Shown here one piece after another: positions 34,334 through 38,318 of a stretch of DNA of 64,000 bases (position 1 is its first letter; each line of letters starts with the position of its first letter). The stretch is from positions 489,246-553,245 of the forward strand of contig NZ_FRAU01000001.1 of the NCBI RefSeq assembly GCF_900142415.1, written 5' to 3'. The position numbers were made by a program, and so were the translations under genes. This DNA is from Rhodothermus profundi. GTDB lineage: Bacteria; Bacteroidota; Rhodothermia; Rhodothermales; Rhodothermaceae. Under the pieces are notes generated by a model. That model worked only from the letters and a program-made list of their open reading frames with translations. It was not told where the DNA came from and did no database searches.

Positions 34334-34681
34334 ATGCCACGGGCTACGAATAAAGTTGCGGCGCGCCGCCGGCGGAAAAAAATTTTGAATATGGCCAAGG
34401 GATACTGGGGCCGGCGGAGTAAAATTTACACCATCGCTAAGCACGCGGTTGAAAAGGCGCTGCAGTATGCGTACCGCGACCGCCGTCAGCGCAAACGCCA
34501 GTTTCGGCGGCTGTGGATCATCCGTATCAATGCAGCCGCACGCCTGAACGGAACCACCTACTCCCGGTTCATGGGAGCGGTGCGCAAAGCCAACATTCAG
34601 CTAAACCGCAAGGTCCTGGCCGACCTGGCGGTCAATGATCCGAACACCTTCAGGCAGATTGTTCGTGCTGTTTCGTCATGA
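34334..34681 (+). CDS. rplT: 50S ribosomal protein L20
   Basis: 115 aa, full length. It begins [20 protein letters not shown] and contains [30 protein letters not shown] and the closing NPNTFR-like segment ([10 protein letters not shown]). L20 is an early 23S rRNA-binding protein and often an autogenous repressor of its own operon. The strong overlapping hairpins 44 bp downstream separate it from pheS. Confidence 0.97.
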
Positions 34682-34724
34682 AACAGGTGGGATCCACCCG
34701 ATTTTTTAGCGTTCGCGCCACTGG

Positions 34725-34795
34725 CCTGTAACCGGGGCGCTGAACGTCATGCAAGTATTCCTGCCCGCCCCTGTTACAGGTCGGCGGGCTTTCTT
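34725..34795 (+). promoter_or_regulatory. overlapping alternative hairpins (terminator/antiterminator pair) upstream of pheS
   Basis: Long stem: CCTGTAAC-C-GGGGCG (34725-34739) pairs with CGCCCC-T-GTTACAGG (34766-34780), 14 of 15 positions paired, around a 26-nt loop. Terminator-like stem: GCCCGCC (34763-34769) pairs with GGCGGGC (34783-34789) and is followed directly by TTTCTT. The two share bases 34766-34769 and cannot form together. This is the layout of an attenuator that could decide whether transcription continues from rplT into pheST. Alternatively the second hairpin alone ends the infC-rpmI-rplT transcript. Confidence 0.65.
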
Positions 34796-34811
34796 ATTCC
34801 GCAGGTACGCC

Positions 34812-35837
34812 ATGGCTACCCACTCCATGCAGGAAGAACTGGAGGCGCTGCGTCACGCTATTGAGAATACGCCCATCGACTCCGAAGAGGAGGCCGAAGC
34901 CTTTCGCATTCGCTTTCTGGGGCAGCGAAGCGGCCAGATCACCCACCTGTTCAAGCGCATCCGGGAAGCTCCCCCGGAAGAACGCCCGCGCATTGGTCAG
35001 CAATTGAACGCGCTGAAGCGGCTGGCCGAACAACGGCTGGAGGCGGCCCGTGCTCGCCTGCAGCAAGCCGCCCGTCCGCGCCTGGAAATACCAGACCTGA
35101 CGCTACCGGGACGCCGCGCGTTCACTGGCTCCCTCCATCCCCTGACGCAGACCCTGGACGCTATCGTGCGGGTCTTTGAACAACTGGGCTTTTCCGTAGC
35201 CGAAGGCCCGGAAATTGAAGACGACTGGCACAACTTTACCGCACTCAACTTCCCGCCCGATCATCCAGCCCGCGACATGCAGGACACGTTCTTCCTGCGT
35301 CAGGGACCCTCCTACCGGGACGCCGTCGTGCTCCGCACGCACACGTCACCGGTGCAGATTCGCGTCATGGAGCAAATGGCGCCTCCCATTCGCATTATTG
35401 CGCCAGGACGGGTCTACCGCAACGAAGCCGTCTCCTACAAGTCGTTCTGTCTGTTTCATCAGGTCGAGGGGCTCTACGTAGACCGCAACGTGTCGATGGG
35501 CGACCTGAAACAAGTGCTCTATCTGTTTGCTCGAGCGCTTTTCGGCGAAGACGTGCGCATGCGCTTCCGCCCCAGCTTCTTCCCATTTACTGAACCCAGC
35601 GCCGAAGTAGACATCTGGTGGCCCCTGCCCGATCATCCAGATGGCGGCCGCTGGATGGAGATTCTAGGCTGCGGCATGGTACACCCCAATGTGTTCCGAG
35701 CCGTAGGCATCGACCCGGAGCAGTACACCGGGTATGCCTTCGGCATGGGCGTTGAACGCATCGCCATGCTGCGCTATGGCATCGACGACATCCGTCTGTT
35801 TTACGAAAACGATCTGCGTTTCCTGGAGCAGTTTTAA
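34812..35837 (+). CDS. pheS: phenylalanyl-tRNA synthetase alpha subunit
   Basis: 341 aa from the ATG at 34812 ([18 protein letters not shown]). An in-frame ATG at 34749 would add 21 residues, but it lies inside the regulatory hairpins and the extension is unlike the family. An N-terminal coiled-coil arm (about 1-95) precedes the class II core. Core marks are [48 protein letters not shown] (motif 2 region) and [18 protein letters not shown] (motif 3). PheS and PheT form the alpha2-beta2 enzyme that charges tRNA-Phe. pheT begins 3 bp after its stop. Confidence 0.97.
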
Positions 35838-35840
35838 ACA

Positions 35841-38318
35841 ATGAAACTCTCCTACCGCTGGCTGCAACAATACATCGCGCTCGAGCTGTCGCCTTCGGAG
35901 CTGGCCGAAGCCCTGATTGGCCTGGGCCTGGAGGTTGAAGCCGTCGAACCTCTGGGGACCGACCTGAATGGTGTGGTAATCGGCCGGGTGCTGGAAGTGC
36001 ATCCCCATCCTAATGCAGACCGGCTGCGCATCTGCCAGGTCGATCTGGGCCACAACCAGTCCGTATCCATCGTATGCGGCGCTCCCAACGTAGCCGCCGG
36101 ACAGAAAGTCGCCGTAGCTACGCCCGGCACAACGCTGTTGCTGAGCGACCGAGAGGGAAACCGCCAGCCCATAACCATCCGCAAAACCAAAATTCGTGGA
36201 GCAGTCTCCGAAGGCATGATCTGTGCAGAGGACGAACTGGGCCTCTCGGACGACCATAGCGGCATCCTGGTGCTGCCAGACGACGCTCCGGTGGGCCACC
36301 CCTTTGTGGAATACCTGCAACAGCAGCGGCTCATCGTACCGGACTATCAGTTGGAAATTAGTCTGACACCCAACCGAGCGGATGCCGCTAGCCATCTGGG
36401 AGTGGCCCGCGACCTTTCGGCCCTACTCGACCGACCGCTCCATCGCCCTGAGGTCGCCCTGCCTGAACCGGGAGGAGAAGCATCCCGTCAGGTACAGGTA
36501 ACCATTGATGCTCCAGAGGCCTGTCCCCGTTACGTAGCCCTGCTGGTACGCAACGTGCGCGTGGGTCCCTCGCCCCTCTGGTTACGCCAGCGCCTGGCAG
36601 CAATTGGCCTGCGCTCAATCAACAACGTGGTCGATGTAACCAACTACGTACTGCACGAATGCGGCCAGCCATTACACGCCTTTGACTTCGATCAATTGCG
36701 AGGAGCACGCATCCATGTGCGACGGGCCCGCGCCGGAGAGACGTTCACCACCCTGGATGGCAAAACGCGCCAGCTTCCTGAAGGCGCCCTGCTGATCTGC
36801 GATGCCGAGCGTCCAGTAGCCCTTGCTGGTATTATGGGGGGCGAAAACTCAGAGGTTACTGACCACACGACAAATGTCCTGATCGAGAGCGCCTACTTCG
36901 ACCCTTCCACCATTCGGCGCACCTCCAAAGCCCTGGGACTTCAAACGGATTCGTCCTATCGATTTGAGCGGGGCGTTGATGCCGGCCTCCAGCGCTGGGC
37001 CGCCGCTCGCGCTGCTCAGCTCATAGTCGAAGTAGCCGGTGGCGAGATCGTGCCCGGCGTTGTGGACGTGCAGATGCAGCGTTTTGAGCCACGTCCAGTG
37101 GTGCTGCGTCTGACGCGTCTGAAACAACTACTGGGCACGGAAATTCCTCCCGATAGAGCCGTTCGCATTCTGGATCGCCTTGGGTTCCAGCCTAAGCGAG
37201 AAGGCACTGCGCTTCGCTGCACTGTTCCACTTTACCGTCCGGACGTAACCGAAGAGATTGACCTGATCGAAGAAGTGGCGCGCGTGCATGGATACGATCG
37301 GCTCCCTTTGCCCGATACGTTCATTGTGCCGGCACGCGTACCCGTCGAGCCCCCAACCCAGACGCTGCGTCGCCGCATGCGCGCGTTGCTGGCCAGTCTT
37401 GGCCTGCGCGAAATCTATACCAACAGCCTTCTTTCCCGGGAGGTAGCGTACCGGTTTACCGCTGCCTCGGAGACCAACGCCCAGGCCCACGCTTCGCATC
37501 TAGTCGAAACGCTGAATCCAATCTCGGCCGAAATGGCGGTACTGCGCCCCTCCTTACTGCCGGGACTGGTGCAGACGGCCGTTCATAATCAGAACAGAGG
37601 GCAAGAAGTGCTGCGTTTCTTTGAGTTTGGCCGCGTCTTTATGCGCACCGACCGCACCGATACGCTTGTGCCCGGATTTGCAGAACACGAAGCCCTTATT
37701 ATCGGACTAAGTGGCCCACATGCGCCGGAAGGCTGGGACGTGCGGCCACGTCTGACCGACTTTTTCGATCTCAAAGGCCTGCTTGAAACGCTACTGGCGA
37801 CGCTGCATCTAAGCGACCGCATTGCCCTGATTCCAGCTGAATCCCCCGCACCCACCGCTGCCTATCAGGTAAATCTGGTGGCCGATGGACAGGTGCTCGG
37901 CACGCTTGCCCGCCTTTCCGACGCGCTGCAGGAAGCCTACGAACTACGCGCGCCGCTCTATTACGCCGAACTGAACTGGGACGCATTTGTCGCGCTTGCC
38001 TATCCTGTCCAGCAGCGCCGCTATCAGTCTTTTAGTCGCTTTCCTGAAGTAGCTCGCGACCTGGCTGTCCTCGTCGACCGGGACCAACCGGTTGGTCCCC
38101 TGCTTGAAACAATTCGCAAGGCCGGCGGCGACTTGCTTCGCTACGTAGGCATTTTTGACGTGTACGAAGGAGAACGCATTCCCAGCGGCAAAAAAAGCGT
38201 GGCTTTTTCCCTCCGTTTTGGAGCGAACCGAACGCTGACCGATGAAGAGGTAGATGCCCGCGTAGCAACCATTCTCCAACAGCTCCAGCAGCAATTTGGC
38301 GCGCAACTGCGGCGTTGA
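35841..38318 (+). CDS. pheT: phenylalanyl-tRNA synthetase beta subunit
   Basis: 825 aa, within the usual 780-830. It has an N-terminal B1 domain and OB-fold tRNA-binding insert (about 40-150, GRVLEVHPHPNADRLRICQV) and the B3/B4 editing domain (about 210-390). A B5 domain follows (about 400-475, PVVLRLTRLKQLLG), then the catalytic-like core and a C-terminal ferredoxin-like anticodon domain (about 730-825, FSRFPEVARDLAVLVD). It contributes tRNA binding and removes mischarged Tyr. It is co-transcribed with pheS. Confidence 0.97.
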   Translation: MKLSYRWLQQYIALELSPSELAEALIGLGLEVEAVEPLGTDLNGVVIGRVLEVHPHPNADRLRICQVDLGHNQSVSIVCGAPNVAAGQKVAVATPGTTLLLSDREGNRQPITIRKTKIRGAVSEGMICAEDELGLSDDHSGILVLPDDAPVGHPFVEYLQQQRLIVPDYQLEISLTPNRADAASHLGVARDLSALLDRPLHRPEVALPEPGGEASRQVQVTIDAPEACPRYVALLVRNVRVGPSPLWLRQRLAAIGLRSINNVVDVTNYVLHECGQPLHAFDFDQLRGARIHVRRARAGETFTTLDGKTRQLPEGALLICDAERPVALAGIMGGENSEVTDHTTNVLIESAYFDPSTIRRTSKALGLQTDSSYRFERGVDAGLQRWAAARAAQLIVEVAGGEIVPGVVDVQMQRFEPRPVVLRLTRLKQLLGTEIPPDRAVRILDRLGFQPKREGTALRCTVPLYRPDVTEEIDLIEEVARVHGYDRLPLPDTFIVPARVPVEPPTQTLRRRMRALLASLGLREIYTNSLLSREVAYRFTAASETNAQAHASHLVETLNPISAEMAVLRPSLLPGLVQTAVHNQNRGQEVLRFFEFGRVFMRTDRTDTLVPGFAEHEALIIGLSGPHAPEGWDVRPRLTDFFDLKGLLETLLATLHLSDRIALIPAESPAPTAAYQVNLVADGQVLGTLARLSDALQEAYELRAPLYYAELNWDAFVALAYPVQQRRYQSFSRFPEVARDLAVLVDRDQPVGPLLETIRKAGGDLLRYVGIFDVYEGERIPSGKKSVAFSLRFGANRTLTDEEVDARVATILQQLQQQFGAQLRR

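Follow-up and report, generated by a model that had tools for sequence, protein, structure and literature searches.

The closest described system is pheM-pheST of Escherichia coli, where pheM, a short Phe-rich leader, lies between rplT and pheS in the gene order thrS-infC-rpmI-rplT-leader-pheS-pheT and a terminator/antiterminator precedes pheS. Classical leader attenuators, such as trp, his and pheA of Proteobacteria and Actinobacteria, contain three mutually exclusive hairpins, the choice among which depends on a stalled ribosome. In a survey from 2010, the leader peptides known before were all from Proteobacteria and Actinobacteria, to which the survey added Firmicutes (PMC2965389); classical leaders are described with two or more regulatory codons (PMC1183508). 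Here, we analyze a stretch of 64,000 nucleotides from Rhodothermus profundi, referred to as the window, which belongs to none of these groups but to Rhodothermota. Its thrS-infC-rpmI-rplT-pheS-pheT order is that of E. coli, and a leader gene and three competing RNA hairpins are located between rplT and pheS. The element is very probably a ribosome-mediated transcription attenuator of pheST sensing Phe-tRNA charging; we infer ribosome stalling, termination and a response to Phe from its observed anatomy, conservation and covariation.

A leader gene and three hairpins precede pheS

The ATG of the putative leader gene (34678-34680) overlaps the stop codon of rplT as ATGA. No clear Shine-Dalgarno sequence was found upstream of this ATG, and the leader apparently receives its ribosomes from rplT. 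The tandem Phe codons TTT-TTT (34702-34707) are located 1 nt upstream of the P1 hairpin, and the leader stop TAA (34729-34731) is part of segment 2, the 5' arm of the long antiterminator stem. A pattern scan also proposed a terminator at 34686-34704 (GGTGGGATCCACC followed by GATTTTTT; terminator-like pattern to 34707), which was rejected: its T run is formed by the leader Phe codons and its hairpin is absent from other Rhodothermus.

Table 1 Features of the rplT-pheST locus of the window.
Feature	Position	Strand	Details
rplT (ribosomal protein L20)	34334..34681	+	ORF; stop TGA 34679-34681
Putative leader peptide gene, 17 codons	34678..34731	+	Six-frame translation; same ORF in 7/7 Rhodothermus genomes
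Candidate regulatory codons CGA-TTT-TTT (Arg-Phe-Phe)	34699..34707	+	Second Phe codon TTT/TTC within genus
P1 (1:2) hairpin	34709..34747	+	34709-34719 with 34736-34747, one bulge at 34741
Antiterminator (2:3)	34725..34780	+	34725-34739 with 34766-34780; contains leader TAA
Predicted intrinsic terminator (3:4)	34763..34798	+	34763-34769 with 34783-34789, then TTTCTTATT
pheS, putatively regulated gene	34812..35837	+	Start ATG 34812 most likely; alignment of relatives begins there
pheT, putatively regulated gene	35841..38318	+	ORF, 3 nt after pheS

In addition to its outer pairs, P1 has an inner extension (34721-34724 with 34732-34735), and the hairpin folds with -23.1 kcal/mol (34705-34750). The antiterminator arms, CCTGTAACCGGGGCG and CGCCCCTGTTACAGG, form 14 Watson-Crick pairs with a single C.U mismatch (34733:34772). 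When the upstream stretch was shuffled with its dinucleotides preserved, none of 5000 sequences paired equally well with the 5' half of the terminator, and 14/15 matches were reached in 0 of 2000 shuffles. The terminator stem pairs GCCCGCC with GGCGGGC, is continued by inner CCTG/CAGG pairs (34770-34773 with 34777-34780) and is followed by a short T tract (TTTCTTATT). Because positions 34766-34769 are common to both, antiterminator and terminator exclude each other. Further, the P1 3' arm overlaps the antiterminator 5' arm, and the locus therefore has three hairpins arranged 1:2, 2:3 and 3:4 as in classical attenuators. An initial annotation of this DNA had already described the long stem and the terminator stem as overlapping, and their pairing proved exact; the leader ORF and P1 were both absent from it.

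Proposed attenuation mechanism

We hypothesize that a ribosome finishing rplT, or one initiating at the overlapping ATG, would translate the 17-codon leader. When Phe-tRNA is scarce, this ribosome would stall at TTT-TTT and cover the 5' arm of P1, leaving segment 34725-34739 free to pair with 34766-34780. Once this antiterminator has formed, the terminator would be impossible and pheST would be transcribed. When Phe-tRNA is plentiful, the ribosome would proceed to the leader stop codon and mask 34725-34739, so that the terminator hairpin (34763-34789) would form and the transcript would end near 34790-34798. If the leader were left untranslated, P1 would form and the terminator would likewise be kept.

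Predicted folds of the window follow this scheme. With nothing blocked, P1 and the terminator form (-41.5), blocking the 13 nt after the Phe codons yields the antiterminator with no terminator pair remaining (-32.0) and a ribosome at the leader stop leaves the terminator (-18.4). Equilibrium folds in relatives are mixed: the antiterminator is preferred even unblocked in G001, G002 and G006, and blocking P1 leaves the terminator in place in the minimum-energy folds of over half of the remaining relatives, many of them having it in all states. A clean minimum-energy switch, as obtained for the window, is thus not shared by all relatives, and kinetics must matter. As attenuation is a race during transcription, equilibrium folding is taken as compatible with the mechanism and not as proof of it.

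Conservation and covariation

The leader occupies the same position in all seven Rhodothermus genomes (MKRSASIRFFRVRAAGL, MKPLRAIRFFRVRAAGL, MKLLPTIRFFRVRAAGL and MKPQTSIRFFTACAASL). Its RFF is invariant, residues N-terminal of RFF vary freely and the change between TTT and TTC at the second Phe codon is synonymous. In the most distant genus member, G001, the outer P1 stem changes from CGTTC/GAACG to CCGC/GCGG. One Rhodothermus genome (G005, locus L009) carries an insertion of about 410 nt between terminator and pheS, with leader and stems intact.

In the order Rhodothermales, rplT and pheS are located together in 94 loci, and about half of these gaps contain Phe leaders (approximately 47 by our own count, which includes L027 judged by eye). 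RFF leaders occur in families f1, f5, f6, f8 and f11 and in genus g17 of f4, FFF and similar leaders in f15, NDFF leaders in f2, FRFAFAF leaders in genus g13 of f13 and leaders with a single RF in genera g23, g44, g47 and g49 of f4. The leader start overlaps the rplT stop in g1, g8, g11, g16, g21 and g28. In genus g13 (L029, L030, L031, L040), the Phe codons are spaced (MLSIRPSFRFAFAFLIPSSPQGR and similar) and located about 80-105 nt after rplT. Across elements, the terminator begins 51-74 nt after the Phe codons, and a hairpin resembling CCCGCC..GGCGGG-T precedes pheS in most genera of the order.

Among relatives, the outer P1 stem shows two-sided changes (CGTTC/GAACG, CGATC/GATCG, CCGTT/AACGG, CCGGC/GCCGG), in a register that was chosen by hand, which favours pairing. 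A fairer test re-matched 5' arms with 3' arms from other genera, using 12 genera of the CGA-UUU type. For P1, own arms averaged -16.0 kcal/mol compared with -12.3 kcal/mol for swapped arms, and 0 of 50,000 re-matchings were as good; for the antiterminator, the values were -23.3 and -19.2 kcal/mol, with 1 in 50,000 as good. Restricting the set to one genome per family still gave less than 1% (140-372/50,000), and the values obtained with a wider, mixed set were 0.002 and 0.0001. Per-element shuffle tests were often weak for P1 alone. Folding and covariation agree on three mutually exclusive helices: 1:2, antiterminator 2:3 and intrinsic terminator 3:4. Covariation in rplT-pheS gaps had been named as a check in the initial annotation and is seen in the arms of both P1 and the antiterminator; its proposal that a terminator/antiterminator pair may control pheST is strongly supported by this comparison with relatives.

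These results bear on another explanation, namely that the infC-rpmI-rplT transcript simply ends at a plain intrinsic terminator, with an incidental long stem and with pheST expressed by leak-through or from its own promoter. In favour of it, many genomes of order and class carry nothing but a terminator 20-60 nt downstream of rplT. Within the order, a short gap or a plain terminator is all that is seen in about half of the genomes. In class families outside the order (L112-L130), a plain terminator follows rplT and no Phe leader was found. In family f14 (L075, L082, L083), rplT adjoins pheS with almost no gap, and terminator and leader are absent. Leader-containing elements, however, have a longer gap with Phe codons at a fixed site before P1, ending 1-3 nt upstream of the outer stem in 10/10 registered elements. 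Together with the covarying arms and the failure of shuffled sequences to match the antiterminator, this makes a plain terminator improbable. In other Bacteroidota, rplT is found near pheS in 4 of 80 surveyed loci, two of these four being from Rhodothermales, and no convincing Phe leader was seen outside Rhodothermales.

The amino acid specificity of the leaders was assessed in 24 genera, represented by one genome each, using ORFs of 8-40 codons that begin with ATG and are located between rplT and the terminator. Tandem Phe is present in 13/24 genera, with 0.15 expected from dinucleotide shuffles (at most 2 in 300 sets). Other amino acids are far below Phe, including Arg (3 compared with 1.2 expected) and Asn (2 compared with 0.04). 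Upstream of the stems there is a short, presumably translated ORF whose codons include those for the amino acid that the regulated synthetase handles. It could be argued that the choice between the stems is made in trans, by a tRNA, a metabolite or a protein such as L20, and that the presence of Phe codons is incidental. In E. coli, L20 controls the operon that encodes it, and a protein could use such stems too. Yet the codon excess is specific for Phe, the cognate amino acid of the regulated synthetase, and the window gave no Rfam match to the T-box covariance model or to a riboswitch, which renders a trans-acting switch more improbable still.

Least credible is the version of the initial annotation, in which ribosomes starting at ATG 34749 and reading in frame into pheS would link folding to the synthesis of PheS: the frame is indeed open into pheS and contains three Phe codons, but its start lies in the antiterminator loop, downstream of the competing arm and thus at a poor site for a sensor, and it is not conserved in the genus, an in-frame start being absent in G002 and G005 and found as other codons or at other positions in other Rhodothermus. 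Gap length also varies by 1-4 nt, which breaks the frame. The actual candidate for a translation link is the separate, pheM-like leader starting on the rplT stop, whose Phe codons precede all three stems. The contrast with the separate pheM leader drawn in the initial annotation therefore does not apply.

Relationship to known attenuators

The ribosome-mediated attenuator proposed here would work like pheM-pheST and appears to fit the same functional class. It falls outside RF01859 (Phe_leader), however, as judged by the covariance model, which gave no match in the window at the gathering cut-off or at E<=5 and matched the E. coli element at 75 bits as a positive control. The Rfam search of the window returned sub-threshold miRNA and sRNA matches only. 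A genome search showed the element to be single-copy and gave no sign of a dispersed repeat. The E. coli leader contains RFFF and the window leader RFF, with five and two Phe codons, respectively. Further, pheM is located 122 nt after rplT, in contrast to the overlapping start in the window, and its Arg codon is CGC instead of CGA. In one clade of family f4 (L038, L048, L049, L054, L056, L064, L065, L066, L073), the leader and three stems are kept with one Phe codon, as in MYRERVHKRFIGRLTH, whereas classical leaders are described with at least two regulatory codons. A literature search that left out most subscription papers found no publication on such an attenuator in Rhodothermota, and an earlier mention is possible. 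What is new here, on the sequence evidence, is the conserved rare CGA before Phe and the clade with a single Phe codon.

In a count that required no particular codon and is inflated by shared descent, in-frame Arg-Phe of leaders is encoded by CGA-TTT in 30/34 cases and 13/15 genera. Among Arg codons, CGA accounts for 3.9% in the adjacent genes rplT and pheS of the same genomes and for 24/293 in window genes. It directly precedes the first Phe codon (TTT) in the window (34699-34704) and in L017, L019, L021, L022, L028, L037, L038, L048, L065, L066 and L089. Leaders with three or four Phe codons are mostly without CGA. The Arg tRNA genes of the genome have anticodons ACG, CCG, CCT and TCT, and its one Phe tRNA gene has GAA. 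As no Arg tRNA with anticodon TCG was found among the genome's tRNA genes, CGA should be decoded by inosine wobble through Arg-tRNA ACG. In the Salmonella his leader, CGA is slowly read and de-attenuates (PMC4046918). We tentatively suggest that the rare codon pair CGA-UUU may itself be part of the sensor, as a codon-context sensitiser under selection across several families. With CGA being slow, the ribosome would be held at the adjoining Phe codon, and one or two Phe codons would therefore be enough. Alternatively to such a role in codon speed, CGAUUU could be a sequence motif recognised by something else.

The attenuator proposed here would extend to Rhodothermota a textbook mode of regulation for which most known cases are from Proteobacteria. 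It would act on the same gene as in E. coli with no detectable sequence kinship, which poses the question of ancestry versus convergence. The conserved rare CGA before Phe offers a way to test codon context in attenuation with synonymous mutants, and a leader fed from a ribosomal-protein gene would tie synthetase supply to ribosome synthesis.
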